This document shows positions 2,810-19,540 of a stretch of 64,000 nt of DNA, in pieces. The notes beneath the pieces were generated by a model. It saw nothing but the letters and a program-made list of their open reading frames with translations. It searched no databases and had not been told where the DNA came from. A program made the position numbers and the translations under genes. This stretch comes from Bacillota bacterium. Lineage in GTDB: Bacteria > Bacillota_A > Clostridia > Lachnospirales > Lachnospiraceae. The stretch spans positions 49,863 to 113,862 of the forward strand of contig JAEYMU010000042.1 of NCBI GenBank assembly GCA_023407175.1, written 5' to 3'. Numbering within the stretch: the stretch's first letter is position 1; each line of letters begins with the position of its first letter.

Positions 2810-2865
2810 GTTGCATTGATGAAAAACCATACGAATGATATGCAGCTTATTTATAATAATAACGC

Positions 2866-2940
2866 AGGTTATGCTCTGAAATAAGCAATTTATGCGGAAA
2901 ATATGCATAAAAAAATAAGTATGATAACATTATAATTGTT
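2866..2940 (+). promoter_or_regulatory. LytTR-type direct-repeat promoter, copy A
   Basis: AGGTTATGC (2866-2874) and AATTTATGC (2887-2895) are exactly 21 bp apart; a third half-site ATATGC starts 11 bp after the second TATGC. TATAAT at 2931-2936 is the likely -10 box; nothing resembling TTGACA lies 17 bp upstream, so activation is expected. The same arrangement precedes the genes at 9508 and 16448. Confidence 0.7.
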
Positions 2941-2942
2941 CA

Positions 2943-3238
2943 ATAAGCTGATATTATCAGGAGTGAACATTTATTAATTGGGACAAATGGAGAAATGTTT
3001 TGCCTGAAAGGAGGTTGAAGCGCATAGGTCATTCTGAAAATCAAAGAAGGAAAATTGAAACTGTATTTTACAGGCAATACTTATGCTGCGGGAGACAAAG
3101 AGGAGCTGCTCATTTGGAAGGGGAGAACCCGTTATAATTACGCAGAGGTGCTGTGATTATTCAGAAGGACCGAAAAAGCATAGAAAAAGGATGAATTACT
3201 TAAAAACAATATGTAAAAAATCGGAGGTAGTGAAAAAA
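2943..3238 (+). other. Long 5' leader of the first GH3 cassette
   Basis: About 300 nt separate the inferred transcription start from the chosen start codon. The GH3 frame stays open back to 3083, but the extra residues look non-coding and no ribosome site supports an ATG there. An isolated AAAGGAGG at 3008-3015 lacks a well-spaced ATG. I recognise no riboswitch. Confidence 0.4.
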
Positions 3239-6200
3239 ATGAGAATCAAGAATAGGCGTAGGATTTATAGTGTGATAGCGATTCTGCTTGTTGTAGCTGT
3301 GGTTGCGGGAAACATTGCCTATACCGGCACGGGGACTGCTATGGCTACGGAAAGCGACGGAGCTTCTGTCACGAAGGATGGCGATTATTGCTATCAGGAG
3401 GGGTATAATGTAAGCGTTGAGCTTGAAGCAGAGGGCTCTGTCCTCTTGAAAAATGACGATAATGTTCTGCCGCTTGCGGAAGGGACTAAGGTAACAATTC
3501 TCGGAGCCATGTCCTATAATTATGTAGAGGGCGGTACAGGCTCGGCAGGCGGAGCAGATGATGAGAATACGGTTATGATGAATGACGCTTTTGGAGAAGC
3601 AGGTCTGGATGTAAATCCTGATGCATGGGATTGGCTTGCCGGTCAATGCGGAGGCTCCAGAGGTGTTGATGATAAGGACCCCGCGGGTGTGGGCTGGACA
3701 AGTTATACCAAAATTCATGAATTTGCTTCCGATGTATATGGAAGCGGTACATCGTCAATCGTTACTGACGGTTATTCGGATTATGCGATTGTGACAATTG
3801 CACGTTCCGGTGCGGAAGGAGCCTCTCCTTCCATGGATTATGACGGAGATGGAAGTACGCTTACAGGTACAACCTATCTGGAGCTTGATCAGAATGAAAA
3901 GGATCTTCTGACATACTGTGCGGCAAATTTCAGCCATACAATCGTCCTGATTAATTCGGCAACTGCTATGGAACTTGGCTTTCTTGACTCTGATGAATAT
4001 AATATTGATGCGGCACTTTGGATAGGACATCCGGGTGAAGCAGGTATTGTAGGCGTAGGTACAATACTCACCGGACGCACCAATCCATCCGGTCGTCTGG
4101 TGGATACATATTCCTATGATATGACGACGAATCCTACCTATTATAATACAGATAATAACAGCTATACAAACGGTCAGACCTTCTATCAGTATGAGGAAGG
4201 TATTTATGTGGGCTATCGATACTATGAGACGGCCGATGCCGTAGGATATTTCGACTCCCCGGAATTTACCTCCCTGTCCTTAAAAAATGGAAGTGCCAGC
4301 GGCTATGATCAGGTAGTGCAGTATCCCTTTGGCTATGGACTTTCCTATACCTCCTTTACCGAAAAAATAACAAAGTCCGAGGTGGATTTAAAGGCTCACG
4401 GCACGAACAGCATTACGGTAAAGGTAACCAATGACGGTTCTGTGGCCGGTAAGGATGTTGTGGAGCTTTATATGGAGGCCCCTTATCAGTCCGATACGGA
4501 GAATTTTGGTATTAAGGGAGTGGGCCTTGAGAAATCCAAGGTTGTACTGATTGGCTTTGCAAAAACTGACGAAATTGCGCCCGGTGAATCGGCAGAAGTG
4601 ACGATCACCTTCCAAACAGATAATCTTGCATCCTATGATAACTTCGGTCAGGGCTGCTATGTTTTGGAAAAGGGTGAATATAAATTCCATGTACAAAAGG
4701 ATGCTCATCAATGGGGCGGGGAAGGCAGCACCAATGCCGCCAGTGACACAGCCTCCGCAAATCTTAAAAAATCTATTATCTATAATGAGAGCGGAAATGT
4801 CAGTGACGCAGAATATGCGGGTGCACGTGACTCGGATGATGTGATTGCCGTAAATTCCATGGATGATGTGACAGCCGGTGACGGAAATATGCTTGACGGT
4901 TATCTTTCCCGGAATGATATTGCCGGTGGAATGACAGCTATCATGCAGCATCAGTCTGATGAGGCTTCCAACGAGATACTGAATTCTGATATAGAAGCCT
5001 GCCTGAATCTGACGAATACGGACACCTATGACTATACTTATGAGACCTATATTAACGGTGTGAAAACGACTCTTTCAGAAACAATTTATGCCCATGGCAA
5101 TAATATGATGCCCTTTGCCGAGCAAACGCCGGACGGTATCGATACCCAGACACTGAGTGAGCAGAAATGGGGACAGACCTATTATGTGCTGGAGGATGAG
5201 AACGGTGAAGCCGTGCTGGATGATAATGGTCTTCCCACGGTGGTCGCTAAAGAGCCGACTGACGGAAGTGCTTATCATAAGCTTAGCTGTGAGGATATGA
5301 CGAATGTTCCCATTGACACCACTGAGGGTAAGGCTATTTGGAATATGCTGGTAGAGGAAACAACCCTGGCAGAAGCAATTGAAATTCAGGGAAATTCCGG
5401 TTGGAATGTAAGTGCAGTTGACTCTGTCGGCAAAAGTGCCCAAAAGTGTCAGGATGGACCAGGAGAGCCTGCCAATGGTACTGTTGCAGGCGGAACATGG
5501 TTCCCCTGTGCGGTAACCATTGCTGCAACCTGGAATACAGAGCTTGCCTATGCGGAAGGTGTTGCTTACGGTAATCAGGCCGCCCTGTTTGGTGTGGGCG
5601 GAGCCTATGCACCTGCCATGAATACTCATAGATCTCCATTCGGCGGACGTAATTTTGAATATTATTCAGAGGATGGCTTCATTGCAGGGCAGATAGGCGG
5701 CAATGCGGTATCGGGCATTCAGTCCACCGGTACAAATGTATTTATCAAGCACTTTGCTTTGAATGACGGAGATACCAACCGTGGCGGTAATACAACCTGG
5801 GCCAATGAACAGGCAATCCGTGAGATTTATCTGGTTCCTTATGAGATTTCCGTGAAGGAATACAACGCAAACGGTATTATGGGTTCGCTGAACAGAATCG
5901 GTATGTCCTGGTACCATTACGGAATGTATGTGAGTATTCTCCGTAATGAATGGGGCTGGAACGGCTATTTAATTACTGACGGTGACGGAGCTGACGGTGA
6001 TGCCTATAACTCAGCACAGGCTATGCTTTCCGTACTGGGCTCCATGCTTAACCGCGGTGTTTATATTAATGCGGCTTCCACCCAGGCGGCATATGGTGAT
6101 GCTTCTTCTTATGCTTATGGACAGTACAGCTTACATCAGGTTATGTTATATTGTTTATACCAGTATTGCGGAAACGGTACGATCGGTGCCACAACCACAT

Positions 6201-6310
6201 CCAGTGATTTCCCTGTCGGTGCGGTAGTTGTCGGAGGAATGGCTGCAGCGGTGATCATAATTATAGCCAGTATCATTGCGGTTCGTGTCAGAAAGAAAAA
6301 GAAGGCTTGA
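3239..6310 (+). CDS. Membrane-anchored GH3-family glycosidase with permuted domain order (cassette 1)
   Basis: About 1023 residues from ATG 3239 (GGAGG at 3223-3227). An N-terminal signal-anchor (residues 8-28) is followed by the GH3 C-terminal alpha/beta domain (SVLLKNDDNVLPL; SGAEGAS with E193, the expected acid/base), an Fn3-like domain (NSITVKVTNDGSVAGKDVV), then the GH3 TIM-barrel domain (DGPGEP with D739, GGRNFEYYSEDG, KHFALND with K837, and LITDGDG with D914, the expected nucleophile). A final membrane helix and KKKKA end the chain. Ordinary GH3 enzymes have the barrel first, as in the 806-residue paralog at 16448. Reversed order is known in some rumen clostridial beta-glucosidases. 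The Trp after the nucleophile and the Arg of DGPxGxR are missing, so substrate and even activity are uncertain. Confidence 0.85.
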   Translation: MRIKNRRRIYSVIAILLVVAVVAGNIAYTGTGTAMATESDGASVTKDGDYCYQEGYNVSVELEAEGSVLLKNDDNVLPLAEGTKVTILGAMSYNYVEGGTGSAGGADDENTVMMNDAFGEAGLDVNPDAWDWLAGQCGGSRGVDDKDPAGVGWTSYTKIHEFASDVYGSGTSSIVTDGYSDYAIVTIARSGAEGASPSMDYDGDGSTLTGTTYLELDQNEKDLLTYCAANFSHTIVLINSATAMELGFLDSDEYNIDAALWIGHPGEAGIVGVGTILTGRTNPSGRLVDTYSYDMTTNPTYYNTDNNSYTNGQTFYQYEEGIYVGYRYYETADAVGYFDSPEFTSLSLKNGSASGYDQVVQYPFGYGLSYTSFTEKITKSEVDLKAHGTNSITVKVTNDGSVAGKDVVELYMEAPYQSDTENFGIKGVGLEKSKVVLIGFAKTDEIAPGESAEVTITFQTDNLASYDNFGQGCYVLEKGEYKFHVQKDAHQWGGEGSTNAASDTASANLKKSIIYNESGNVSDAEYAGARDSDDVIAVNSMDDVTAGDGNMLDGYLSRNDIAGGMTAIMQHQSDEASNEILNSDIEACLNLTNTDTYDYTYETYINGVKTTLSETIYAHGNNMMPFAEQTPDGIDTQTLSEQKWGQTYYVLEDENGEAVLDDNGLPTVVAKEPTDGSAYHKLSCEDMTNVPIDTTEGKAIWNMLVEETTLAEAIEIQGNSGWNVSAVDSVGKSAQKCQDGPGEPANGTVAGGTWFPCAVTIAATWNTELAYAEGVAYGNQAALFGVGGAYAPAMNTHRSPFGGRNFEYYSEDGFIAGQIGGNAVSGIQSTGTNVFIKHFALNDGDTNRGGNTTWANEQAIREIYLVPYEISVKEYNANGIMGSLNRIGMSWYHYGMYVSILRNEWGWNGYLITDGDGADGDAYNSAQAMLSVLGSMLNRGVYINAASTQAAYGDASSYAYGQYSLHQVMLYCLYQYCGNGTIGATTTSSDFPVGAVVVGGMAAAVIIIIASIIAVRVRKKKKA

Positions 6311-6321
6311 AAGGAGAAACA

Positions 6322-7302
6322 ATGAAAAAATTAGGGCATATTATTTCATGTGTATTTTTAATCACTTCCTGTTTTTTATTGATGGCATGCAGCAAACAGG
6401 CATCCGACAGCCAGAAGGTATCGGATGATCAGCCAGCAGGAAAAGTGGTAACGGCTCCTACCGATTTTACCTTTGATGCGCAGTCGGGAGCGTTTACCTT
6501 TAGTGCAACTGATGAAAACGCAGGCTATTATTTTGTAAGAGCCTATGCGGTCACGAATGGAGCGGAAGCCTCCACCTATACGGTAAGCTCAAAACGCATC
6601 CAGGGCGGAAAAACAGGTACCTTAAGCGGTACGGTTGATGTTTCAAGCTTTGGCTGGGGTAATTATAATGTGAAGCTTGTTACCTTTGCTGCCGCCGGCT
6701 CCGGCTATACGGCGCCGGACCCCACCGTTTTAAGCACCTCCTACGGTGTGGGAGGCATTCTAGAAAAGCCGGAGCTCATGGCTTTGGCAGACGGCAATGA
6801 AGTAGAATTGGTAATAGACTGGTATTCGCTTACCGACTGGTATGTCTATCAGTACCTGCCTTCTGTTGTCTTCAATATTTATTCCGATGAAGCCTGCACA
6901 AGTCTGGTTCAGACGGAAACGGTTGATTTAAGCACTCTTACAGTCAGCTATCATCCTACCGGAGGTATTATGTGGGGAGAGGATGCGGCAGGAGAGCATA
7001 AGTGGATTAATGACCAATATGCCTCAAAATATGACAGCTATAAATATACTTTGGAGGCAGGCACCTATTATATTACCTGCCAGGCAATATCGGGTGACGA
7101 GGCCATAGCAGCTTCTTCCAAAGTAAGTGATGTGGTGGAATTTACCTTAACCTCAGATGCGCCAACAGGAGCATACACGGCTTCCAAGACCTCCCTGTGG
7201 AAGGACCCTGAAGTTATGGGAGTTCCGTTGGCAACGGCAGGTCTCTATACGGACCGTATTGATTATGGTCCCACACAGACAACGACCTCCAAGGTGAATT
7301 AA
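6322..7302 (+). CDS. Lipoprotein with Fn3-like beta-sandwich domains (cassette 1)
   Basis: A 326-residue lipoprotein. The start is ATG 6322 behind AAAGGAG; a TTG 15 nt upstream overlaps the GH3 stop but has no ribosome site. The signal peptide ends in the lipobox LLMAC (acylated Cys at about residue 22). The mature part opens with APTDFTFDAQSGAFTF, which matches APANFTFNTADGSFSF in the lipoprotein of the next cassette, and is Thr/Ser/Tyr-rich beta-type sequence resembling Fn3 or Ig-like folds. No catalytic motif is visible. Being sandwiched between a surface GH3 and a permease, it may be a glycan- or ligand-binding partner. That is inference. Confidence 0.8.
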   Translation: MKKLGHIISCVFLITSCFLLMACSKQASDSQKVSDDQPAGKVVTAPTDFTFDAQSGAFTFSATDENAGYYFVRAYAVTNGAEASTYTVSSKRIQGGKTGTLSGTVDVSSFGWGNYNVKLVTFAAAGSGYTAPDPTVLSTSYGVGGILEKPELMALADGNEVELVIDWYSLTDWYVYQYLPSVVFNIYSDEACTSLVQTETVDLSTLTVSYHPTGGIMWGEDAAGEHKWINDQYASKYDSYKYTLEAGTYYITCQAISGDEAIAASSKVSDVVEFTLTSDAPTGAYTASKTSLWKDPEVMGVPLATAGLYTDRIDYGPTQTTTSKVN

Positions 7303-7326
7303 AACAGTTAAGAAATGAGGTAAATT

Positions 7327-9057
7327 ATGTCAGAACAAATCACAGGGGCTGAGATGAAGGAGATAGCACTGAAGTCCCACTCCAGGTTTTCCAGACTTCT
7401 CAATAAATATTTTCACCATATTGACAGAGGGGGCACCTTATCCAATGAGATTACCGCCGGTATCTCAATCTCCATCCTTTCCATCTGCGGTATATTTTTA
7501 AACATGCAGCTTGTTGCAAAAATGTCCGTTTCAGGCAGCTATACCGGGGCATCCTCCTCCCAGATAGCAGCAAATGGGGAGATTTATGCCAATATGTATT
7601 TTGCAGCAATGCTGATTGCTTTTATTGGAAGCCTTATGATTGGTTTAATCGCCAGACTCCCTCTGGTTCAGGTATCCAGCCTTGGATTAAGTACCGTCCT
7701 CATATCCATGATTGGAACAGAAAAAGGATTAACCTATTATAATCTGCTTGTGATAACCTTCTTCAGTTCCATCCTGTATGCATTGCTGGTATCTGTTCCT
7801 ATGGTCAAAAAGTGGGTTTTTCAGGCAATTCCCGCGTCCGTCCGTAAAGCACTTCCGGCGTCTGTCGGTCTTTTGCTGGCCTTTGTGGCTTTACAGCTGA
7901 CCGGTATCATAACGGTAGGAGGCTCCTTGGTTTCCGTCTATGGTGCCGGCTCGCAGCTGGATTATGTAGGTGATACGGTCAGTCTGGCGAATCTGGTCAG
8001 CTTTGGAAAGTTTTCTTATTCTACGGATAAGTTTCATCCTTTACTTTTGATCAGTGCCCTTGCCGTTATTATTACTTTTATATGTTATCTGATCTATAAG
8101 AGATTTTCAAAATATCCTTATTTCTTTTCTCTGCTAACCGGTACAGGCTTCTTCCTTGTGTTTAGTATTTCCGGAGTAGCAGTCAATTGGAATAACTTCC
8201 ATTTTTCCTTTGATTCTCTGTGGGGCAGGATTTGGATGATAGGAGGAGAGGATGCCATGCAGGCCCATATTTCCAGGATACTTGATAATTTATCTGTTGG
8301 AAAAATCTTCTCCGAGGGTATGGATTTCAGTGCTTATACGGCAAACGGCGGCAGTGTAGTTATGCTGTTTACCGCAGGGTTGCTTACCTTTCTATTCATG
8401 AGCATGTACGATGCACAGGCTGCACTCAGTGTGACCGCTGCAAGCAGCCGGGCATTCGATGCTAATAATCAAAAGGATCTGCAGCGGGCTCTGATGTGCA
8501 ATGCGGGGATCAATATAGTTGCCCCCTTGCTTGGAGCAGCTCCCGTTGCAATCGGAAAGGAATCCTATGCAGGGACTGAGGATGGCGCCAAGTCCGGTCT
8601 GGCTTCTGTTTCGGCATCCGTTCTATTCTTTATCTCTATGTTTGTATGGCTTATTCCTGCGGTTTTTGCCACGGCGTGTTCCTATGACATCGCATTCAAT
8701 ATGTATGGACATTATGGTACGGTCATGCAGCTGCTGACGGAATGCAGCTTTGGAGTAGCAGATGCGGTCATGGTGATTCTGGGATTGTCCATGATTAAGC
8801 ACAGTATAGGAATAGAAGGGAAGGATTATGCCGAATATGTGCCTTTTATCGTGACGATTGCCGGTACCTTCTTCCTGTCCAGCCTTGCATATGGGGTGGC
8901 TCTGGGAACAGTTGCATTTATTATAATCCAGCTGACTAAAATTAAAAAAGCGGTGAAGGGGAAGATGCCTGAGGCTCTGACCGAAATAGGCATTCCTACC
9001 GCTGTTATGGGCTTGCTTTCTGCTGTTCTGCTGATATCTGCAGCCCTTTTGATCTGA
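7327..9057 (+). CDS. NCS2-family permease, AzgA-like (cassette 1)
   Basis: A 576-residue polytopic membrane protein with roughly 12-14 hydrophobic helices. The N-terminal pattern FHHIDRGGTLSNEITAG and the segment IPASVRKALPASVGLLLAF correspond to the AzgA branch of the nucleobase:cation symporter-2 family. FMSMYDAQAALSV and GKESYAGTEDGAKSGL (E412) correspond to the family's D-T and ES-AG signature helices. AzgA proteins import purines such as adenine, guanine and hypoxanthine. This protein is clearly divergent, so its substrate is open. It is the last gene of cassette 1, 24 nt after the lipoprotein gene, and is followed by a strong terminator. Confidence 0.8.
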   Translation: MSEQITGAEMKEIALKSHSRFSRLLNKYFHHIDRGGTLSNEITAGISISILSICGIFLNMQLVAKMSVSGSYTGASSSQIAANGEIYANMYFAAMLIAFIGSLMIGLIARLPLVQVSSLGLSTVLISMIGTEKGLTYYNLLVITFFSSILYALLVSVPMVKKWVFQAIPASVRKALPASVGLLLAFVALQLTGIITVGGSLVSVYGAGSQLDYVGDTVSLANLVSFGKFSYSTDKFHPLLLISALAVIITFICYLIYKRFSKYPYFFSLLTGTGFFLVFSISGVAVNWNNFHFSFDSLWGRIWMIGGEDAMQAHISRILDNLSVGKIFSEGMDFSAYTANGGSVVMLFTAGLLTFLFMSMYDAQAALSVTAASSRAFDANNQKDLQRALMCNAGINIVAPLLGAAPVAIGKESYAGTEDGAKSGLASVSASVLFFISMFVWLIPAVFATACSYDIAFNMYGHYGTVMQLLTECSFGVADAVMVILGLSMIKHSIGIEGKDYAEYVPFIVTIAGTFFLSSLAYGVALGTVAFIIIQLTKIKKAVKGKMPEALTEIGIPTAVMGLLSAVLLISAALLI

Positions 9058-9125
9058 TAGGTAGGAATGGGGAAAGGACATATGATATATGGCATTCCCG
9101 GTAAATGTCTATAGATAAAGACGAA

Positions 9126-9178
9126 AATAACAAGTAATCCAGAAGGAAACAACAATTGGATTACTTGTTATTTTTTTT
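9126..9178 (+). terminator. Terminator of cassette 1
   Basis: A 15-bp stem (AATAACAAGTAATCC with its complement) closes a 17-nt loop, followed by eight T. This is the clean end of the first GH3-lipoprotein-permease operon. Confidence 0.9.
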
Positions 9179-9299
9179 GACTAAATCAGTCTATAGAAAG
9201 AAAAATCAAACCCATAACCAGTTTCTTGTTTGATGACTTGATATGTGCAATACAACCAATAAAGCTGTAGAAAGCATATGTATTTTAAACAAAAGATAC

Positions 9300-9373
9300 A
9301 GATTATGCTTTGAAATTAGCAGTTTATGCTAAAAACATGCACAAAAAAAATAATATGCTAAGATACAATTGTT
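9300..9373 (+). promoter_or_regulatory. LytTR-type direct-repeat promoter, copy B
   Basis: AGATTATGC (9300-9308) and AGTTTATGC (9321-9329) are 21 bp apart; a CATGC half-site follows 11 bp later. TACAAT at 9364-9369 is the likely -10, with no -35 consensus. ATATGTGCAATACA about 60 bp upstream is also shared with copy C, so B and C look like the more recent duplicates. The leader to the start codon is about 130 nt. Confidence 0.7.
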
Positions 9374-9507
9374 CATTTTTAAAGGAGGAAAAAAGCTTCA
9401 TCATCCTTCTTTTGCTATGAAAGGAGGCTTGGTCGGATTGGAAGCGGTAAGGTAAATGTAATATCAGAAGCTATGAAAAAAGGTAAAGAGGAATTAGAAG
9501 GAGGGAA

Positions 9508-12500
9508 ATGATTATTATGACAGTAAAAAAATCCAAAAAGGGCAAGATCGGTATGAGTGTGATTGCGGTTTTTGTCCTGATTGCGATTGTATTTAACGGT
9601 GTCATGGTGACTAGCTACGATACGATAGCGGCAACGAACGGCAAGATTACCATGAAAAATGTCGACCGTGCTTATACGCTGGCCGAGGGTACACAAGTGT
9701 GTACCGATCTGGAAAGTGAGGGTGCTACCCTGCTTTATAATAAAGACAACATACTGCCGTTGAATGGCAGCAAAGTTACCATTCTTGGCGCTTGCTCCCA
9801 TAACTATGTGCAGGGAGGCACAGGTTCGGCAGGCGGCCGTGATGATTCGAATACGGCGATGATGGATAAGGCTTTTGCCAATGCCGGCATCGATTACAAC
9901 AAGGAGGCGTGGACCTGGCTTGACAATGCACTTGGCAATGGTTCGGATATACATAATGGCAGCGTGAATGCAGAATATCTCGCTGCGGATGATCCTGCCG
10001 CAAGCTATAGCTGGACTTCCTACCAGCAAATTCATGAATTCAGCATCCAAACATACGAAAAATTTGTTACAGAGGACTTAATCGGTGATTATAGTGATGT
10101 TGCAATTGTTACGTTTTCCCGTTCGGGTGCGGAAGGTGCATCCCCCTCTCTGGACTATGACGGAAACCTTGATACGACCACAGGGCGTACCTATCTGGAG
10201 CTTGACGACAATGAAAAGGCCCTGCTGGCATTTTGCAAGGAGCATTTTAAATCCACTGTCGTGCTTGTTAATTCCGCCGTACCGATAGAATGCGGCTTTG
10301 TCAATAATTCGGCGTATAATGTGGGTGCCGTTCTCTGGATTGGTCATCCGGGTGAAGCCGGTATGTACGGTGTAGCAAATATTCTCAGCGGAAAGACAAA
10401 TCCTTCCGGCCAAGTGGTTGATACCTGGACCTATGATATGTCCACAAACCCTACATACTATTCGGCTGACGACCAGACTTATTCCAATATCACGCTGAAT
10501 TCAAAAAACAAGTACTATGAGTATAATGAAGGCATTTATGTGGGTTATCGTTACTATGAAACAGCAGATGCATCAGGCTATTTTGATAGTACTGAGTTTG
10601 GCAGTATCAAGTTCAAGGGCAACCTGTCAGAAGGCAAGTACTATTCGGAATTGAATGCGAACGGTACCTATGAAGAACAGAAGGCAGCTGGTCCTATGGC
10701 CACCTATTCCGGCTATGAAGAGGTCGTTCAGTTCCCCTTCGGCTATGGACTGTCTTACACGACCTTCACACAGAAAATTAAGAGTGAGGATGTTACACTG
10801 GAGGCACACGGTCAGAATTCTGTGACTGTTACTGTAAAGAATACAGGCAGTGTTGCAGGTAAAAGCGTTGTTCAGCTTTATATGCAAGCGCCCTATAACC
10901 AGGATAGCTCCCTTGGCGTCTCCGGCGTTGGTCTTGAAAAGGCGCAGGTAGTGCTGATTGGCTTTGCCAAGACAGATATGCTGGAGCCGGGAAAATCACA
11001 GGACGTTACAATTGAGTTTTCCACCGATGATCTGGCAAGCTTTGATGAATTTGGTCAGGGCTGCTATGTGCTTGAAAAGGGTGATTATACGTTCCATGTA
11101 TCTCCAAATGCTCATGGCTGGGCCAAGGAAGAAGCATATGGCAGTGACTACGACAGCCTGACCGTTTCTCTTGACGAAACGACTGTGTATAACGACAAAG
11201 ATGCTGGAGCACGTGTTGGAACCATGAATGGAGTGACTGTTACGGAAGGAACGACAGCCGTAAATGCCATGAATGATATCACTGCGGGAGATGGTGCCAT
11301 GCTGGTCAACAGCGGAGCATCCGGTACCTATACTCTGGGATATCTGTCAAGAAGTAACTTCTATACAGGTATGGTAGAGATCATGTCCTATCAGTCCGAT
11401 GATTATACAGGTGTTTATAGCGGCAATGGCTATGTATGGTCCGCCGACGGTAAAGGCACGACCCCGGTTGTGACCGGGGATGTGGCGGGACAGCGGAAGG
11501 CGGCAGATATTGTTCAGGAGGCGATTGAAACAACGCCTAAGAGCCTTGAGGATTCAAGCGGTGTTTCAGAGGGTATGACATATAATTATGGAAGCATCCT
11601 GGCCAACGGCATATCCTTTGGTGACGGCAATACCTCCAAGACGCTGTATGGCTATGGCAACGATACCTATATTAATATGAAGTATACCAAAGATGGTTTG
11701 CTGCAATCCGATGATAGCTATCTCAAGGCATTAAGCGGCATTGACATCACTTGGAGTGCAGCCTATTATGTAGCTCTTGATTCCAACGGAGAAACCGTTA
11801 AGGATACGGATGGCTATGTCAAGATTTATGATACAGAGGCGGATGCCAATGCCGAGGGCACCGCAACCAAATTGCAGTGTGAACACCTGTCCGGTGTTCC
11901 TGCCGCTGATTATGAACGTTGGGATAAGCTGACGAACGAGCTTACCTTCAAGGAAGCAGATGATTTAATGGGAGAAAACGGTTGGCATACCTATGGGGCT
12001 GACTCAGTTGGCAAAAAGTTCGGTCTTGCGGTTGACGGACCCGGCGAAGCCGGCAATGCACAGAATGCAGACTGTACCTGGTGGCCTTGTGCGGTTATCA
12101 TTGCTGCCACATGGAATACGGAACTTGCCGAGGCGGAAGGCGTGGCTTACGGGCATCAGGATCTTTTGAATAATACCCCAAGCTGCTATGCACCGGCTAT
12201 GAATACCCACAGAACTCCATTTGGCGGACGTGATTTCGAATACTACTCGGAAGACGGCTTTATTGCAGGTGTTATTGGCGGTCATGTTGTACAGGGCTTG
12301 CAGTCTACCGGTATGCATGTATTTATCAAGCATTTTGCTTTAAATGATTCCGATACAAACCGCGGAGGTGTTAATACCTGGGCAGACGAAATGTCCATTC
12401 GTGAGATCTATGCGAAGCCCTATGAAATCAGCACCAAGTATTTTGATGCAGATGGTATTATGGGTTCACTGAACAGCATGGGTATGGCCTGGTCCCATTC

Positions 12501-12912
12501 AGGCTTTTATATCACCATGGCCCGTGAAGAATGGGGCTGGAATGGTTTTCTGATTACCGACGGTGACGGTTCCTCCAGCGATGTTTATAACAACTATTCC
12601 TTCTGGACTCTGGGTACCCAGGGAGGGATTCTGGGCAGCGGCGATCTGTCAGCCAACACGGCTTATGCCTCCATTGGTACGGACGGTTCAGGTGCCACGA
12701 ATTATATTAACTATACACTCCATAATATTGCACGGAATGCACTATATCAATACAGCCACAATATCGATAAGCTGAATGCCGTTACGACGGTTACTCCAAA
12801 CACAGCACTGCCTATGATTATTATCATTGTCGGTGATGCTATCCTCCTGCTCGGCATTTTGATCGTATTGTTCGCAGTGGCGCTGCCCGGCATGAAGAAG
12901 AAAAAAGCATAA
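9508..12912 (+). CDS. Membrane-anchored GH3-family glycosidase with permuted domain order (cassette 2)
   Basis: An 1134-residue paralog of the protein at 3239. The start is ATG 9508 or ATG 9517, both behind AAGGAGG. Order: N-terminal membrane helix (about residues 14-34), GH3 C-terminal domain (LYNKDNILPL; RSGAEGAS with E209), Fn3-like domain (NSVTVTVKNTGSVAGKSVV), a linker, GH3 barrel (VDGPGEAGN, GGRDFEYYSEDG, KHFALNDSDTNRGG, LITDGDG with D1018) and a C-terminal helix before KKKKKA. Compared with cassette 1 it has extra sequence near residues 330-395 and 630-740. It carries the same departures from the GH3 norm (TDGDG instead of TDW, no Arg in the DGP loop), so these are a subfamily trait and not errors. 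Confidence 0.85.
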   Translation: MIIMTVKKSKKGKIGMSVIAVFVLIAIVFNGVMVTSYDTIAATNGKITMKNVDRAYTLAEGTQVCTDLESEGATLLYNKDNILPLNGSKVTILGACSHNYVQGGTGSAGGRDDSNTAMMDKAFANAGIDYNKEAWTWLDNALGNGSDIHNGSVNAEYLAADDPAASYSWTSYQQIHEFSIQTYEKFVTEDLIGDYSDVAIVTFSRSGAEGASPSLDYDGNLDTTTGRTYLELDDNEKALLAFCKEHFKSTVVLVNSAVPIECGFVNNSAYNVGAVLWIGHPGEAGMYGVANILSGKTNPSGQVVDTWTYDMSTNPTYYSADDQTYSNITLNSKNKYYEYNEGIYVGYRYYETADASGYFDSTEFGSIKFKGNLSEGKYYSELNANGTYEEQKAAGPMATYSGYEEVVQFPFGYGLSYTTFTQKIKSEDVTLEAHGQNSVTVTVKNTGSVAGKSVVQLYMQAPYNQDSSLGVSGVGLEKAQVVLIGFAKTDMLEPGKSQDVTIEFSTDDLASFDEFGQGCYVLEKGDYTFHVSPNAHGWAKEEAYGSDYDSLTVSLDETTVYNDKDAGARVGTMNGVTVTEGTTAVNAMNDITAGDGAMLVNSGASGTYTLGYLSRSNFYTGMVEIMSYQSDDYTGVYSGNGYVWSADGKGTTPVVTGDVAGQRKAADIVQEAIETTPKSLEDSSGVSEGMTYNYGSILANGISFGDGNTSKTLYGYGNDTYINMKYTKDGLLQSDDSYLKALSGIDITWSAAYYVALDSNGETVKDTDGYVKIYDTEADANAEGTATKLQCEHLSGVPAADYERWDKLTNELTFKEADDLMGENGWHTYGADSVGKKFGLAVDGPGEAGNAQNADCTWWPCAVIIAATWNTELAEAEGVAYGHQDLLNNTPSCYAPAMNTHRTPFGGRDFEYYSEDGFIAGVIGGHVVQGLQSTGMHVFIKHFALNDSDTNRGGVNTWADEMSIREIYAKPYEISTKYFDADGIMGSLNSMGMAWSHSGFYITMAREEWGWNGFLITDGDGSSSDVYNNYSFWTLGTQGGILGSGDLSANTAYASIGTDGSGATNYINYTLHNIARNALYQYSHNIDKLNAVTTVTPNTALPMIIIIVGDAILLLGILIVLFAVALPGMKKKKA

Positions 12913-12922
12913 TTTTAACCTC

Positions 12923-12957
12923 GATTTACCGGGAGCAATCCCGCTCCCGGTAAAATC
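12923..12957 (+). other. Intercistronic hairpin
   Basis: GATTTACCGGGAGC pairs with its complement (one bulged A) around a 6-nt loop. No T run follows and the next gene starts 31 nt later, so it more likely stabilises the upstream GH3 mRNA than terminates it. Confidence 0.55.
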
Positions 12958-12987
12958 TGATTATCATGATCAAGGAGAAATGATAAT

Positions 12988-14271
12988 ATGAAAAAAATTA
13001 ATAAAGTTATGTGCTGTGCTGCAGCTCTTGCTATATGCATCGGGACAATGTCCGGATTGACTGCCTGCAGTAATGGCAGCAGCAGTACTGCACCTGCCAA
13101 TTTTACTTTTAATACAGCGGATGGGTCGTTTTCCTTCGATGCTGTCCCCAATGCCGAAACCTATCTGGTCGGTGTCAGCAAGGTTTTGAATGATACCACA
13201 GGAAAGGCACTGCAGAATGTAAATGGTGCCGTTGAGACTACCAAAGCAGACGGAAGCACCTGCTATATCTGGTCTGAACAATCAGGCTCCAGTGCCGGAC
13301 TTGCTGATAACGATAACGACGGTAAGGTAACAGGTACGGTCGTATTCCGTGAATATTCCTCCTCAGCAACGACAGTTGGGGATGTTCTTTCTATGGATAA
13401 ACTGCCGCTTGGTCATTATATCGTACAGGCGATGGCTGCCTCCAACGATAAGCTTCCCAATCCAGAGCCTGCGATGTCGGAGTTTGTAATGTGCGGAACG
13501 CTGGCAATGCCTTCCGGCTTTACAGCCCAGGTTAACAGTGAGGGCTATATGGAGATTACCGCACCGAGCAGCTACTATCTGAACTGCCTTACTGTGACGG
13601 GCATGCCGGAAAAGATGGTATTTGAGATTATGGACGGAACCACAAGTGTTGAGACGATTACTATGGATGATTTCTCCTATACCAATACAGTGAATGGTCC
13701 GAATAAGGCATATACCTTCACGAACAATACGGTAACCGGCACGACTAAGCTGGATACAGGTAAGGAATACACGGTAACGGTTACAGCCGCAGGTGACGGC
13801 GATCAGATTAAGGATGCTTCTGCACCTGCATATATGGCCACGGCAACAGCCGCAGCAGAGTTCGCCACCACATATGATACTTCTGCTTCCGGAATCTGCG
13901 GTGATTATAGCATTGCCGTAACCATTGGCCTTGATGCTGACGGTAATAATATTTACGAGCTGACTGCTTCCGTTAATAATATCACGATTCTTCGTGAGAG
14001 CGGAATTTATAATACCCAAGGAGTCATTGAAACGCTGGATGATTTGAACACCTATGCAGAGGGTATCACGCTTAGCTTTACAACGATGAAATCGGATGCC
14101 GGTTCCGCTATTCTTGACGGCAAGACACTTACCGTTACAAAGGGTACGACTTCGGGCGGTTGGGGTGCTCCAGACAAGACAACCTATAACCTGACTGGCA
14201 CGGGGCTGTCATTGGACGGTACTTCATTTGATCTCGCTGTGCCGACTAATACCGGCGGATTTCCCTTCTAA
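12988..14271 (+). CDS. Lipoprotein with Fn3-like beta-sandwich domains (cassette 2)
   Basis: A 427-residue lipoprotein; ATG 12988 follows AAGGAGAAATGATAAT. The signal peptide ends at the lipobox LTAC (Cys near residue 27). The mature start APANFTFNTADGSFSF aligns with the cassette 1 lipoprotein; this one is about 100 residues longer. It contains several Thr/Gly-rich beta segments such as GKEYTVTVTAAGDGDQIKD, typical of tandem Fn3 or Ig-like modules, and no visible catalytic motif. A role as surface ligand-binding partner of the GH3 and permease is inferred from its conserved middle position in both cassettes. Confidence 0.8.
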   Translation: MKKINKVMCCAAALAICIGTMSGLTACSNGSSSTAPANFTFNTADGSFSFDAVPNAETYLVGVSKVLNDTTGKALQNVNGAVETTKADGSTCYIWSEQSGSSAGLADNDNDGKVTGTVVFREYSSSATTVGDVLSMDKLPLGHYIVQAMAASNDKLPNPEPAMSEFVMCGTLAMPSGFTAQVNSEGYMEITAPSSYYLNCLTVTGMPEKMVFEIMDGTTSVETITMDDFSYTNTVNGPNKAYTFTNNTVTGTTKLDTGKEYTVTVTAAGDGDQIKDASAPAYMATATAAAEFATTYDTSASGICGDYSIAVTIGLDADGNNIYELTASVNNITILRESGIYNTQGVIETLDDLNTYAEGITLSFTTMKSDAGSAILDGKTLTVTKGTTSGGWGAPDKTTYNLTGTGLSLDGTSFDLAVPTNTGGFPF

Positions 14272-14296
14272 TCACATTTGAGAAGCTATGATAATA

Positions 14297-14337
14297 AAGC
14301 ATCAACCGTTCCAGAGGTCTCTGAAACGGTTGATGCT
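14297..14337 (+). other. Intercistronic hairpin before the permease gene
   Basis: AAGCATCAACCGTTCCAGAG pairs with its near-perfect complement (one mismatch), with no T run behind it. It may act as a partial terminator or processing site lowering permease expression relative to the surface proteins. Confidence 0.5.
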
Positions 14338-14374
14338 TCAAACAGGAATATATTATGTCATGGAGAAAAAATAA

Positions 14375-16102
14375 ATGGACAATAATGTACTTACACAAAC
14401 GGAGGCCGCTGTATCCAAACAGAAAGGGGAACCCTGCGGGCTTTCTAAAAAATTGAATCAGTATTTCCACCATCTTGACCGGGGAGGTACATTAAAGGGT
14501 GAAGTGATGGCCGGTATTGCAATGTTTTCTTTGGCCATCTGCGTGATATTTATGAATATGCAAATTGTGGCCGGCGCTGTTAACGGCAAGGTTGAACTGG
14601 GGACTTCACCCGGAGATCCCACCAATATCGCGGCTGCATCAACCTATGCCCAGATTTACATTGGTTCGATTTTGATTGCCTTTATTGGCAGCCTGATCAT
14701 TGGTCTGGTGGCAGGATTGCCTTTCGCACAGCTTTCTACAATGGGCTTTGCAAGCTCAATGCTTAGTCTGGTTGGCACAGAAGCTGGTCTTACCTATTAC
14801 AATCTGCTGTTCATCAATTTTATTGCAGCCCTGATTTATGGCCTGGTTGTCGGAGTACCGGTTGTCAGAGAAGGTGTATATAAAGCACTGCCTGCATCCG
14901 TTCGCAGGGCATTGCCGGCTGCTGCCGGACTGATATTTGCTTTTGCGGCTCTGAAGATGAGTGGGTTTGTTACCACATCTGATATCGCTTTAGGTAATAT
15001 TGGCGGGCAATCTATTACCGTCATAACAGGCTTTGCTGATTTCTCCGGAGGGAAAAAAATGGCTACCTTTGCTTTTATCGGTGCGATTGCTGCGATTCTT
15101 ATATATTGCATACTAAAGGGCTTCAAGCGTAAGCATCCAGTATTTTGGTCATTGGCAGGAGGTACCGGACTTTTTATTCTTATCGATATTATCTTCTGCG
15201 GCCTGGATGTGGCAAATACGGATTCCTTCATCAATTTCGGAAGGGTATGGATGATTACCGCCTCACAGGCCAGTATGGAAACACCCTTTGGAGACAGCTA
15301 TCTAACCTACTTCGGCCCTGCTATAAAAGAGGTATTTTCGAATTTCAGTGATATTTTCACGAAGGGAGCAGACTTCTCTGCATATACCGGCAGCACTTTG
15401 GCACTGGTACTTAGCGGCGTGCTTTGTTATGTATTTATGGGCGTATATGATGCAGAAGGCACAATGCTGGCTGTTAAGGATGCACTGAACCGTAATGCAA
15501 ATGAAGCGGGAAGGGTTGATTTTGATAGTCAGAAGGGGATACGTAAGATATTGCTTTGCAATGCGGGCATGAATATCATTGCGCCGTTTTTGGGTATTGG
15601 CGGGATATCTGTCAGCAAGACCTCCGTGGCGGCCACAGAGGATAACGGCAAATCCGGCCTCGCATCCATTGTGGCCGGCATCGGCTTTCTGATTTCTCTG
15701 TTCCTTATGTTGTTCCCTGTATTGTTTGCAACAGTCACATATCCTGTATACAGTATGAATCAATGGAACTATGACGCATATGGCAACGGAGGATTTGTTT
15801 ATTTGATGCAGGGGGCAGCCTTTGGTATTGCTGACGCAGTCATGGTATGCGTAGGACTTTCCATGCTGCGTGCACTTAAAAATATAAATTGGAGAGAGCT
15901 TGCAGACTGGATACCGGCCGTTGTAACGGTTGCAGCATCGGCGGTGCTCACAAATCTTGCTTTCGGCATAGCTCTGGGAGTCATTGTGTTCTGCCTGATC
16001 AGGCTGCTTTCCTTCCGTAAGGGCAGCAAGCTTGCTATTCCGACTGTTGTACTGCTGGCACTGATGATTGTTATGCTGGTACAGCAATATGTATTCATAT
16101 AA
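14375..16102 (+). CDS. NCS2-family permease, AzgA-like (cassette 2)
   Basis: A 575-residue polytopic membrane protein, clearly paralogous to the permease at 7327: FHHLDRGGTLKGEVMAG near the N-terminus, LPASVRRALPAAAGLIFAF, and FMGVYDAEGTMLAV. The AzgA signature helix reads SKTSVAATEDNGKSGL here, so the Glu retained in the first permease (KES) is Thr416 (KTS) in this copy. The two may therefore differ in substrate or coupling. It ends cassette 2; the hairpin at 16117-16156 follows. Confidence 0.8.
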   Translation: MDNNVLTQTEAAVSKQKGEPCGLSKKLNQYFHHLDRGGTLKGEVMAGIAMFSLAICVIFMNMQIVAGAVNGKVELGTSPGDPTNIAAASTYAQIYIGSILIAFIGSLIIGLVAGLPFAQLSTMGFASSMLSLVGTEAGLTYYNLLFINFIAALIYGLVVGVPVVREGVYKALPASVRRALPAAAGLIFAFAALKMSGFVTTSDIALGNIGGQSITVITGFADFSGGKKMATFAFIGAIAAILIYCILKGFKRKHPVFWSLAGGTGLFILIDIIFCGLDVANTDSFINFGRVWMITASQASMETPFGDSYLTYFGPAIKEVFSNFSDIFTKGADFSAYTGSTLALVLSGVLCYVFMGVYDAEGTMLAVKDALNRNANEAGRVDFDSQKGIRKILLCNAGMNIIAPFLGIGGISVSKTSVAATEDNGKSGLASIVAGIGFLISLFLMLFPVLFATVTYPVYSMNQWNYDAYGNGGFVYLMQGAAFGIADAVMVCVGLSMLRALKNINWRELADWIPAVVTVAASAVLTNLAFGIALGVIVFCLIRLLSFRKGSKLAIPTVVLLALMIVMLVQQYVFI

Positions 16103-16116
16103 GGGAATGTAGATGA

Positions 16117-16156
16117 AAGAGCATTCTGATTTGCTTTTTAAGTCAGGGTGCTCTTT
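16117..16156 (+). terminator. Weak terminator-like hairpin after cassette 2
   Basis: AAAGAGCATTCTGATTT pairs with AAGTCAGGGTGCTCTTT through several G-U pairs. There is no T run, so termination may be partial. Confidence 0.45.
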
Positions 16157-16276
16157 CCAATCCACCTACAGGATAGGCTTAAAACTAAGGAGGACAAGTA
16201 ATTCCTGCTGCATTGGATATGTGCAATACAGACGAATAATATGATCAAAACCATATGGTTTTTACACAAAAAGTAC

Positions 16277-16350
16277 AGATTATGCTTGAAAATTAGCAGT
16301 TTATGCAAAAAATATGCACAAAAAATATAGTGTGCTAAGATACAATTGTT
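16277..16350 (+). promoter_or_regulatory. LytTR-type direct-repeat promoter, copy C
   Basis: AGATTATGC (16277-16285) and AGTTTATGC (16298-16306) are 21 bp apart, TATGC recurs 11 bp later, and TACAAT at 16341-16346 is the likely -10. It drives the GH3 / GtrA / glycosyltransferase / chemoreceptor operon with a leader of about 90 nt. Confidence 0.7.
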
Positions 16351-16447: not shown

Positions 16448-18868
16448 ATGAAATATAAAGAGCTAATTGAAAAAATGACGTTAGAAGAAAAAGCATCCTT
16501 ACTATCAGGTAAGGATTTCTGGCAGACCCAGGATATCAAAAAGCACGGAATTAAGAGCATGTTTCTTGCGGACGGACCGCATGGAATCAGAAAGCAGGAG
16601 GCGGCGGCAGATCATCTTGGATTAAATCCCAGTATATCGGCAACCTGCTTTCCGACCGCAGCAACGATTGCCAACAGTTGGAATGAAGAGCTGGGAGAAA
16701 GAATCGGAGAGCACCTGGGAGAGGAAGCAGCTTCCCAAAAGGTTAATGTTCTTTTGGGACCTGGTATCAATATGAAACGCAATCCCTTATGCGGGAGAAA
16801 TTTTGAATATTTCAGTGAGGACCCCTACCTGGCAGGAAAGCTGGGAGCAGCCTATATCAGAGGAATTCAGTCGAGGGGAATAGCTGCCTGTGTAAAGCAT
16901 TTTTGCGCAAATAATCAGGAGGAGCGGCGAATGTCCATCGATACGGTGGTGGATGAAAGAGCTCTGCGGGAAATATACCTGACGGCCTTTGAAATCGCCG
17001 TGAAAGAGGGGCATGTAAAGACGGTTATGTCCTCCTACAATAAACTGAATGGTACCTATACAAATGAAAATACCTACCTTATGGATATTCTGCGTAAGGA
17101 ATGGGGCTTTGATGGCTGTGTGATTACCGATTGGGGAGGCAGCAATGACCGGGTAGCAGGACTTCGTGCAGGCAATGAGCTGGAGATGCCGACAACGGCC
17201 GGAGAATCCAACCGGGAGATTGTCAGAGCCGTACAAAATGGCCAGATAAAGGAAGAAGAGCTGAATCAATGTGTGGATCGACTTCTGGAGCTGATATTTA
17301 CAACTCATGAGGCCTTAAATAAAGCACCGGGGAAAATCGACTTTAAAAAACATCATGAAATGGCTCAAAGAGCAGCCGAGGAATCCATTGTCCTGTTGAA
17401 GAATGAGGATAATATTCTGCCCCTGCATCATGGCGACAATGTGGCAGTTATCGGTGATTTTGCCAGAAATGCCAGATACCAGGGAGCCGGGTCCTCCATC
17501 GTCAATCCGGCTGTCCTGGAGCATACCATTACCCTGCTGGAGCAATCGGGATTAAACTGTATCGGATTTGAACCGGGCTTTCACCGCTATGGGAAGAAAA
17601 GCAGGGCACTGGAAGAAAAGGCCTGCATCCTTGCAGAGAAAGCAGATATTGTTCTCCTATATCTGGGGTTGGATGAGGTTACGGAGGCAGAAGGGCTTGA
17701 CCGGAAGGATATGAAGCTTCCCCAGAACCAGATTAGGCTGCTGAATGCAATCTATGAGGTGAATCCTAATATTGTAGTGGTATTATCCTGCGGCTCTGTA
17801 ATTGAGATGCCCTGGCACAGCAAGGCAAAGGGGCTGGTGCATGGTTATCTGAGCGGGCAGGCAGGGGCAAAGGCTATGCTAAGGGTACTGACAGGTAATG
17901 TCAATCCCTCCGGTAAATTGGCGGAAACCTATCCGATCTGCTATGAGGGGACTCCGACCTATCATTATTTTCCCGGAAAGGAAGTCAGTGTCGAATACAG
18001 GGAGAGTATTTTCATTGGCTACCGTTATTATGACACCTTGAAGGTTCCGGTGCTTTTTCCCTTTGGTTATGGTCTTAGCTATACCAGCTTTGAATATTCC
18101 AACCTATCGGTTGAAGAGGATAAGGTTACTTTCCAGATAAAGAATACGGGTAATGTCTGCGGTGGAGAGATAGCACAGCTATACGTGGGCTGCAAGTCCA
18201 GAGCAGTTTTCAGACCCAGGAAGGAGTTGAAGGGCTTTGCCAAGATATTCCTGGAGCCTGGAGAGATAAGAACAGTAACTCTTCCTTTTGATGACAAGAC
18301 CTTCCGTTATTTTAACGTAAAAACAGGCAGGTGGGAAACAGAGTCCGCAGAATATGAGCTTATGATCGGGGCCTCCTGTACAGATATCCGTTTGTCGGAT
18401 ACGCTGCCTGTCACAGGTCAGTCGATAATGCTTCCCTATGATAAGGAAAGGCTGCCATCCTATTATTCGGGGAAGATTAACAACGTCAGCCTGGAAGAAT
18501 TTGAACGGCTTTTAGAGCGGAAGGCTCCCTGTCCAAAGTGGAACAGGAGTGCGCCTCTCGATTATAACGACACAGTTGCACAGTGCCAATATGCAAGAGG
18601 ATGCTTTGCGAGATTTGCATATCATGCGGTTTGCTTTGCCCACTGGTTCTTGATAAAGATAGGGAAGCGAAGCAGTGCGAATCTGATTATAATGTCGGTT
18701 TACCATATGCCGTTTCGCGGTATTGCAAAGATGACCGGGGGAATCGTAAATATGCCGATGATCGATGGTGTTCTTATGATTGTCAATGGACATTTCTGGA
18801 AGGGCCTGGGCAAGGTTTTAAGTGAACGGAAAAAAATGAGGAAAGAGGCCAGGGCGAAGGAAGCATAG
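16448..18868 (+). CDS. GH3-family beta-glycosidase, conventional domain order
   Basis: An 806-residue cytoplasmic enzyme without signal peptide. The barrel comes first (LEEKASLLSGKDFW, DGPHGIR with D42, GRNFEYFSEDPYLAG, KHFCANNQEERR, VITDWGG with nucleophile D228), then the alpha/beta domain (ESIVLLKNEDNILPL; EAEGLDRKD with E415 as probable acid/base), then an Fn3-like domain (KVTFQIKNTGNVCGG). About 90 residues at the C-terminus are hydrophobic and basic (NMPMIDGVLMIVNGHFW, then KKMRKEARAKEA) and may associate with the membrane. Beta-glucosidase or beta-xylosidase activity on imported oligosaccharides is likely. Its intact active site contrasts with the two permuted paralogs under the same promoter type. 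Confidence 0.9.
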   Translation: MKYKELIEKMTLEEKASLLSGKDFWQTQDIKKHGIKSMFLADGPHGIRKQEAAADHLGLNPSISATCFPTAATIANSWNEELGERIGEHLGEEAASQKVNVLLGPGINMKRNPLCGRNFEYFSEDPYLAGKLGAAYIRGIQSRGIAACVKHFCANNQEERRMSIDTVVDERALREIYLTAFEIAVKEGHVKTVMSSYNKLNGTYTNENTYLMDILRKEWGFDGCVITDWGGSNDRVAGLRAGNELEMPTTAGESNREIVRAVQNGQIKEEELNQCVDRLLELIFTTHEALNKAPGKIDFKKHHEMAQRAAEESIVLLKNEDNILPLHHGDNVAVIGDFARNARYQGAGSSIVNPAVLEHTITLLEQSGLNCIGFEPGFHRYGKKSRALEEKACILAEKADIVLLYLGLDEVTEAEGLDRKDMKLPQNQIRLLNAIYEVNPNIVVVLSCGSVIEMPWHSKAKGLVHGYLSGQAGAKAMLRVLTGNVNPSGKLAETYPICYEGTPTYHYFPGKEVSVEYRESIFIGYRYYDTLKVPVLFPFGYGLSYTSFEYSNLSVEEDKVTFQIKNTGNVCGGEIAQLYVGCKSRAVFRPRKELKGFAKIFLEPGEIRTVTLPFDDKTFRYFNVKTGRWETESAEYELMIGASCTDIRLSDTLPVTGQSIMLPYDKERLPSYYSGKINNVSLEEFERLLERKAPCPKWNRSAPLDYNDTVAQCQYARGCFARFAYHAVCFAHWFLIKIGKRSSANLIIMSVYHMPFRGIAKMTGGIVNMPMIDGVLMIVNGHFWKGLGKVLSERKKMRKEARAKEA

Positions 18869-18928: not shown

Positions 18929-19540
18929 ATGAATAGAGACAGTAGGGAATATGCCAAAACAAAGGGTATCTGGGCAAATTTCAAGGATAAGCATCCAAAC
19001 ATGGCACAGTTTTTGGTATTTTTTCTGTTGAGTAATGGAATAACAGTATTGCAAATGCTGCTTATGCCCATACTTAAGGAGGTATTTGTACATACGGCAC
19101 TGGTTGACACCAGCTTCCAGGTATTTAAGATAGGGCATAATTTTGATGGAAGTGATTTTTATATATTCAATTATTCCGCCGGCTCTCTTACTCAGGGCGG
19201 AGGCGGAGGACTTGCATATTTTCTTGCGGTTCAGATAACACTGGGTATAGCGCAGATTATTAATTTCTTTGCTCAGCGTAACATTACCTTTAAATCAAAC
19301 GGGAGCATAGGAAAAGCAGCCTTCTGGTATATCATAGCCTATCTGGTGATATCAATCGGTGCTGCTGCGCTGCAGGGACTTTATAAAGCGCCGATTTATC
19401 AGCTGTTTATCAACCAATGGGGAATGGGAGCTCTTGGGGAAACAATAGCGGATATTATTACAATGATCATTAATTGCGCAATTTCCTTCTGGGTTTTCTT
19501 CCCGATTTTCAAAATTATATTTAAAAAAGATGAGAAGTAA
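18929..19540 (+). CDS. GtrA-like membrane protein
   Basis: 203 residues with four hydrophobic segments and a loop rich in Gly (TQGGGGGLAYFLAV), followed by the family-typical stretch QIINFFAQRNITFKS. GtrA-like proteins are thought to help move lipid-linked sugars across the membrane or to assist glycosyltransferases that modify surface glycans. It starts 60 nt after the GH3 gene and lies 23 nt before a family 2 glycosyltransferase gene, the usual GtrA context. The starting ATG follows GAGAGGTAGATCAAT. Confidence 0.75.
   Translation: MNRDSREYAKTKGIWANFKDKHPNMAQFLVFFLLSNGITVLQMLLMPILKEVFVHTALVDTSFQVFKIGHNFDGSDFYIFNYSAGSLTQGGGGGLAYFLAVQITLGIAQIINFFAQRNITFKSNGSIGKAAFWYIIAYLVISIGAAALQGLYKAPIYQLFINQWGMGALGETIADIITMIINCAISFWVFFPIFKIIFKKDEK

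Follow-up and report, generated by a model that had tools for sequence, protein, structure and literature searches.

A 21-bp direct-repeat module upstream of GH3 operons as a probable operator of a LytTR two-component system in Lachnospiraceae

A 64,000-nucleotide stretch of contig JAEYMU010000042.1 from a bacterium of the Lachnospiraceae (here called the window) contains three copies of a direct-repeat module, located downstream of adjacent genes for a LytTR response regulator and a GHKL-type sensor kinase. Every module precedes a gene cluster that opens with a GH3 gene (3239-9057, 9508-16102 and 16448-22357). As judged from sequence comparison, the module very probably combines operator and promoter for these GH3 operons, which would form the regulon of a LytTR two-component system. 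Pairs of the same half-sites, spaced by the same period and oriented in the same direction, were conserved in related loci, where they were found preferentially in front of genes of the GH3 class.

The repeat module in the window

An earlier note on this DNA had described repeats at 2866, 9300 and 16277. Our search for AGRTTATGC-N12-ARTTTATGC returned all three without a mismatch as the only strong matches in the window, and no fourth copy was present in the 64 kb even if up to three mismatches were allowed. At this level shuffled sequences gave 0.50 matches on average and three or more in 3 of 100 shuffles, which makes this a weak test when taken alone. The half-site was redrawn two bases leftward to RCARNTTATGC with the 21-bp period unchanged. 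The resulting geometry consists of 11-nt half-sites at a period of 21 bp, with 9-nt cores 12 nt apart. LytTR binding sites follow the consensus [TA][AC][CA]GTTN[AG][TG], which the window site fits.

The scores of the three modules given in Table 1 derive from a refined two-half-site matrix that was trained partly on these very sites. The runner-up in the 64 kb, considering either strand, was an intragenic place with a score of 12.8. Below this value the 21-bp period was unremarkable in the window: 9 places exceeded 10, and the remaining periods between 17 and 26 gave 3-9 such places each. A further ATGC 11 bp past the second repeat, also pointed out before, is present in all three modules. It is not general in relatives; at its place the locus L002 carries ATGTGCACAAA and L001 carries ATGTGTA. 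The element ATATGTGCAATACA is found at 9241-9254 and 16217-16230, about 60 bp before modules 2 and 3, and is missing from module 1, which is consistent with a duplicated promoter region for modules 2 and 3.

Besides the three modules no place in the window exceeded 13 with the refined matrix, and no strong module was found upstream of the regulator gene. This gene is preceded by a sigma-70-like TTGCTA-17-TATAAT at 630-658, identified by consensus match only. Scans of the window yielded no Rfam family and no tRNA gene, and module 1 had no match in a comparison with plasmids.

Recurrence of the probable operator in related bacteria

Loci around related regulators were collected from named genomes with a profile built from the window regulator together with 26 homologues, and the best 80 from a larger number of matches were analyzed. 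The regulators of these loci are 42-80% identical to that of the window. The loci are related by descent, and the counts derived from them do not represent independent events. Upstream regions were cut by one rule from all 80 loci and searched with a matrix built only from the six window half-sites, as the earlier note had proposed in principle. This matrix identified a 21-bp pair upstream of 30 out of 68 GH3 genes on the coding strand and of none on the opposite strand (0 out of 68). When the period was changed, the number of such regions was 7 for 20 bp and 4 for 22 bp, and it stayed at 0-2 for the rest of the range between 15 and 29 bp. Upstream of genes unrelated to the window proteins, pairs were detected in 9 out of 350 regions on the coding strand and 6 out of 350 on the opposite strand. 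Without any anchoring to genes, the 80 complete loci contained 101 places at 21 bp versus 9-39 at other periods from 14 to 33.

Refinement of the matrix on the GH3 regions resulted in 42 out of 68 (opposite strand 1 out of 68, other genes 14 out of 350), numbers that are fitted to their own data. In shuffled regions the count averaged 0.68 and never exceeded 3. With this matrix other periods reached up to 20 out of 68, the largest number being found at 30 bp, where several cases consist of a true half-site and a weak match. A matrix-free count of 11-mers repeated with at least 9 of 11 positions identical supported the period in GH3 regions, with 18 out of 68 at 21 bp as opposed to 1-7 for the remaining periods between 12 and 40. 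For the 350 regions of other genes this count was 25 at 21 bp, inside the range of 7-43 seen there.

Several individual sites differ in detail. In the paralogue L190 a good pair is found at 22 bp. In L173, L006 and L018 both halves of the pair share a deviation from the consensus (GCTCATGC occurs twice in L173), as if both had changed together. Operators of the two GH3 types were alike at 16.0 of 22 positions within a locus versus 13.9 of 22 between loci, a comparison of only 5 pairs, which are too few. Three overlapping 21-bp pairs located upstream of the LytTR gene itself in L022 (1087-1160) suggest autoregulation in that relative.

Further GH3 genes were taken from six genomes. For 37 of them (36 in long frames) about 1.65 kb at the gene start, in one case 2.15 kb, were searched. 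The pair scored above 12 in 17 regions, above 15 in 12 and above 17 in 10. The opposite strand gave 1 at each level, and seven other periods gave means of 2.0, 0.6 and 0.3. Four of the 17 pairs (L161, L171, L180, L189) precede the predicted start by over 400 nt, and L161, L169, L177-L179 and L191 come from loci that the set of 80 had already included. Out of 18 GH3 genes with frames of 800-830 aa, the majority of them near a regulator, 7 had a pair above 17, of which L218, L220, L225 and L226 are outside the training loci. The regions L201, L202 and L208 share mutually similar upstream sequences with a weaker 21-bp pair and a nearer TGCTATGAT-like element, at about 24 nt as estimated by eye. 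Perhaps these are further members, or targets of another LytTR protein.

In 15 whole genomes, which were partly picked for earlier hits and do not provide an unbiased rate, the pattern with up to two mismatches was found at 34 places versus 2 for the reversed pattern. These were 17 places before GH3 genes, 1 before a chemoreceptor gene, 3 overlapping places before a LytTR gene, 7 in other or unclassified non-coding positions and 6 inside genes. The chemoreceptor preceded by this site in Konateibacter massiliensis (L088) is 58% identical to that of the window and is encoded near another regulator copy. This lends support to the earlier suggestion that the window chemoreceptor would belong to the regulon. 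In L101 ([Clostridium] fimetarium), L082 (Bifidobacterium oedipodis) and L106 (Gemmiger formicilis, a 13.7-kb contig) the sites precede GH3 genes on contigs in which a search for a regulator copy found none, which suggests action in trans.

Regulator and enzyme genes also occur side by side. From 38 regulator copies in 14 genomes (E 1e-40), 31 had a long GH3 gene within 10 kb, compared to about 1.4 expected from uniform placement. Long GH3 genes were defined by a GH3_C domain in a frame of at least 900 aa, the frame length standing in for permutation. They were located within 15 kb of a regulator copy in 39 out of 53 cases, and shorter GH3 genes in 17 out of 76. In the 80 loci, 45 out of 51 relatives of the permuted proteins longer than 850 aa carry hydrophobic segments near both ends. 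The regulator is multiplied in some genomes, with 9 copies in G003 (L003) and 6 in G008 (L031) at E 1e-40, and 10 in G049 at E 1e-50. In G003 and G008 a long GH3 gene is found near most copies.

Promoter layout, genes and similarity to known systems

Fixed spacing of the whole module and TAYAAT as its -10 element had been proposed earlier. The repeat pair is indeed fixed, while TAYAAT begins at 65, 64 and 64 nt as counted from the start of the repeat, a spacing that is nearly constant. Among 33 strong sites, 26 have their top-scoring extended -10-like element 29-31 nt past the second half-site, with ties in 3 more, compared to about 3 of 33 expected from an even spread. The window modules carry TGNTAASAT (TGATAACAT or TGCTAAGAT) exactly 29 nt past the second repeat in all three cases, where it ties with TAYAAT at 34/35 nt on the score used. 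TANAAT at 34/35 nt was found in 3 of the 33 strong sites. The true -10 is probably the extended element at 29 nt, the position usual in relatives, and not TAYAAT. By arithmetic, this would place the half-sites at about -73 to -63 and -52 to -42. Assuming a spacer of 17 nt, the start of a -35 element would be 6 nt past the repeat for a -10 at 29 nt and 11 nt past it for a -10 at 34 nt. In the LytTR regulatory systems (LRS) repeats are mostly located 10 bp before the -35 (PMC6193735), which is a point in favour of TAYAAT at 34/35 nt.

Table 1. Features of the window and their coordinates
Feature	Position	Strand	Remarks
Operator 1 (putative)	2864..2895	+	GCAGGTTATGC-N10-GCAATTTATGC; score 30.4
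Candidate extended -10, promoter 1	2922..2930	+	TGATAACAT, 29 nt past operator; alternative TATAAT 2931-2936
Operator 2 (putative)	9298..9329	+	ACAGATTATGC-N10-GCAGTTTATGC; score 30.8
Candidate extended -10, promoter 2	9356..9364	+	TGCTAAGAT, 29 nt past operator; alternative TACAAT 9364-9369
Operator 3 (putative)	16275..16306	+	ACAGATTATGC-N10-GCAGTTTATGC; score 30.8
Candidate extended -10, promoter 3	16333..16341	+	TGCTAAGAT, 29 nt past operator; alternative TACAAT 16341-16346
LytTR response regulator, 236 aa	699..1409	+	Receiver PF00072 and LytTR DNA-binding domain PF04397 (Pfam)
GHKL-type membrane sensor kinase, 435 aa	1406..2713	+	Pfam PF14501 (2.2e-31); hydrophobic segments in first half
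Permuted GH3 protein 1, 1023 aa	3239..6310	+	Pfam order GH3_C, Fn3-like, GH3_N; hydrophobic segment near each end
Putative lipoprotein 1	6322..7302	+	Lipoprotein-like start (LMAC) read from sequence; no Pfam or NCBIfam family
AzgA-like permease 1	7327..9057	+	phmmer: AZG1 5.2e-13, AZG2 2.1e-9; some homologues named AzgA family
Permuted GH3 protein 2, 1134 aa	9508..12912	+	GH3_C, Fn3-like, GH3_N; hydrophobic segments near both ends; 46% identical to permuted GH3 protein 1
Putative lipoprotein 2	12988..14271	+	No Pfam or NCBIfam family
Permease 2	14375..16102	+	39% identical to permease 1
GH3 protein, normal domain order	16448..18868	+	No hydrophobic segment found
GtrA-type membrane protein	18929..19540	+	Pfam PF04138
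GT2 glycosyltransferase	19564..20580	+	Pfam PF00535
Methyl-accepting chemoreceptor	20606..22357	+	Pfam PF00015, PF00672

The assignment of 699-2713 to a LytTR regulator and its kinase, made before from the letters, agrees with the Pfam domains. The long open reading frame of the regulator opens at 540, yet its relatives (233-236 aa) start at 699, and the kinase gene begins within the regulator gene, with an overlap of 4 nt. Among the named relatives of the regulator, the closest one (87% identity) is encoded in an assembly of Mobilitalea sp., a genus of the Lachnospiraceae. From their close gene spacing each of the three clusters presumably forms one operon. The ATG at 3239 is preceded by GGAGG, as read from the sequence. 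The permuted GH3 protein matches solved beta-glucosidases, and TDG at a candidate catalytic position is aligned to TDW of 8idz. A crude search for the catalytic motif gave some candidate in 35 out of 51 permuted-GH3 relatives, in mixed contexts. For the GH3 protein at 16448-18868 the best NCBIfam model was NF041610 with 764 bits, under its cut-off of 1300. The permeases have no good Pfam match and a distant one to the plant purine permeases AZG1 and AZG2. They diverge from each other, and most of the 120 close homologues among the matches listed are unnamed. At the window edge, a frame end at 1-495 cut by this edge shows a PKTGT motif, a hydrophobic stretch and a basic tail, read from the DNA, a layout which we take to resemble a sortase-anchored surface protein.

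Known LytTR sites are direct repeats of 9-11 nt, 11-13 nt apart and upstream of the promoter (PMC4847170). The window system shares with LytTR two-component systems a receiver-LytTR regulator with an adjacent kinase and the direct-repeat layout. In AgrA, ComE, PlnC and YpdB of E. coli the combination of receiver and LytTR domain, membrane kinase and two spaced direct repeats is similar, whereas the targets differ, being GH3 operons here. In comparison to AgrC/AgrA, the window kinase reached 21.8 bits versus an NCBIfam cut-off of 500 and the regulator 49.3 versus 400. A scan of 13 proteins from 540 to 24088 revealed neither an AgrB domain nor an agrB or agrD gene; it was not aimed at short agrD-like genes and could have overlooked one. 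LRS (HdrRM, BrsRM) are similar in their repeats, mostly 12 bp apart upstream of promoters, one of these with a putative extended -10 (PMC6193735). Their partner is an inhibitory membrane protein, whereas that of the window regulator is a kinase with the GHKL ATPase domain PF14501. Furthermore, LRS autoregulate, unlike the window system as far as the absence of a strong module upstream of the regulator gene indicates, and the window regulator differs by having a receiver domain.

The adjacency of LytTR and GH3 genes is already known. In Butyrivibrio proteoclasticus B316 three LytTR regulators, each near a secreted GH3 protein with a C-terminal transmembrane helix, were reported in print in 2010 for PUL7, 21 and 33, the same pairing three times in one genome (PMC2914790). 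The accessible passages of that account contain no operator, promoter or regulon; here operator and regulon are proposed and the pairing was counted in 14 genomes. A Roseburia arabinoxylan locus is listed with a LytTR regulator and kinase in another publication (PMC5320581). A literature search, with most subscription papers outside its reach, found no operator description for LytTR/GH3 systems. By this comparison the operator appears to be newly described and the regulon seems new, while the kind of regulator is known. The permuted beta-glucosidase BrGH3A has the same order of sandwich domain, Fn3 and barrel. It comprises 814 aa and is proposed to be intracellular (PMC11233000), whereas the window proteins, which carry a hydrophobic segment close to either terminus, comprise 1023 and 1134 aa.

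Proposed regulon, alternatives and implications

In the proposed mechanism a signal would be perceived by the GHKL kinase, which would phosphorylate the LytTR regulator. Two regulator protomers would occupy the two RCARNTTATGC half-sites on one face of the DNA, two helical turns apart. The half-sites end about 30 bp before the extended -10, and bound regulator would recruit RNA polymerase to promoters that have no good -35. This would switch on two cassettes encoding a membrane-anchored permuted GH3 protein, a putative lipoprotein and an AzgA-like permease, as well as the operon for a GH3 protein without export signal, GtrA, GT2 and the chemoreceptor. Most likely, such a regulon would serve to sense a glycoside and move toward it, and to cleave it and import the products.

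It is also possible, and in our view less than likely, that the sites are real LytTR sites of a regulon that remodels the cell's own surface glycans by GtrA, GT2 and GH3 rather than using a dietary glycoside. The gene content of the 80 loci (tblastn) bears on this in both directions. Relatives of GtrA were present in 27 loci and of GT2 in 11, and none of the 80 contained a relative of the window's permeases or lipoproteins, so that these genes seem to have been added locally, with regulator, kinase and GH3 as the core. However, GH3 relatives (66 loci) outnumber those of GtrA, and in the window two AzgA-like permeases and a chemoreceptor suggest uptake and search. Relatives of the kinase were found in 78 loci, and 5 of the 14 loci without GH3 are shorter than 10 kb.

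Several observations weigh against the assignment of the module to this regulator. No hit of the window matrix was obtained in 38 of the 68 GH3 upstream regions, and 20 of the 37 long-GH3 regions scored 12 or less. In a set of 20 further GH3 genes, each separated from any regulator copy by over 15 kb, 3 (L201, L202 and L208) exceeded 12 and 2 exceeded 17. Upstream of LytTR genes the window matrix found the pair in 1 out of 46 regions on the coding strand and in 5 out of 46 on the opposite strand, where the pairs may be sites of divergently oriented neighbouring genes. A marker test comprised 150 genomes from the family of G002 ([Clostridium] fimetarium), 29 of them with the regulator at E 1e-50. 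With up to one mismatch the pattern occurred in 3 of the 150 genomes and in none of the 29. With up to two it was found in 13 of the 29 regulator-positive versus 42 of the 121 other genomes, 55 matching genomes in all with 74 places versus 43 for the reversed pattern (summed by hand and not classified by place). The strict letter pattern was discarded as a genome-level marker because it failed to separate the two groups, and the co-occurrence anticipated by the earlier note did not hold in this form. Therefore, the sites either vary in their letters or are missing in many cases. The operator assignment draws on position, period, strand and gene class.

The lack of correlation with the regulator in the 150 genomes would also fit a module that serves a different regulator, for instance one encoded elsewhere and controlling GH3 genes, and the weaker pairs of L201, L202 and L208 before GH3 genes far from a regulator copy point in the same direction. 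The regulator might alternatively act as a repressor, for which CoxC provides a LytTR precedent. We consider both variants rather improbable. Layout and letters match LytTR sites, and the tested regions had been collected by way of the LytTR regulator. For CoxC an overlap of the repeats with the -35 is described (PMC11347149), while the window repeats end about 30 nt before the proposed -10. Tandem duplication of cassettes or promoters as the sole cause of the likeness, with no regulator site, agrees with the identities of the permuted GH3 proteins (46%) and permeases (39%) and with ATATGTGCAATACA common to modules 2 and 3 and not module 1, and may account for the closeness of these two modules, but it hardly comes into question for the wider recurrence, as the pair returns before GH3 genes of divergent genomes at exactly 21 bp and on one strand only, and also before genes of different domain order, before the chemoreceptor gene of L088 and on the regulator-free contigs of L101, L082 and L106.

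Control of the GH3 operons by the adjacent LytTR regulator, as originally suggested, is thus supported by comparative data, namely orientation, exact period, downstream gene class and genes outside the training loci. Tentatively, and with considerable doubt, the system may be extended to a sensor family for membrane-anchored permuted GH3 proteins across Bacillota and Actinomycetota. Each LytTR/GHKL pair would have its own surface GH3 protein, the pairs would multiply together, and one 21-bp operator with an extended -10 would be common to them. The enzyme may make or destroy the ligand of the kinase in a closed loop, and the cell of the window would import the released, perhaps purine-like aglycone via the AzgA-type permease.

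LytTR sites are said to share no common consensus (PMC4847170). In contrast, the operator proposed here would be recognizable in the DNA of distant bacteria and would allow target genes to be predicted. For GHKL/LytTR systems lacking a known signal it would provide a link to a defined enzyme class, which turns the sensed ligand into a testable question. Furthermore, the site may reveal additional members of such regulons, e.g. chemoreceptors, in bacteria for which expression data are lacking.

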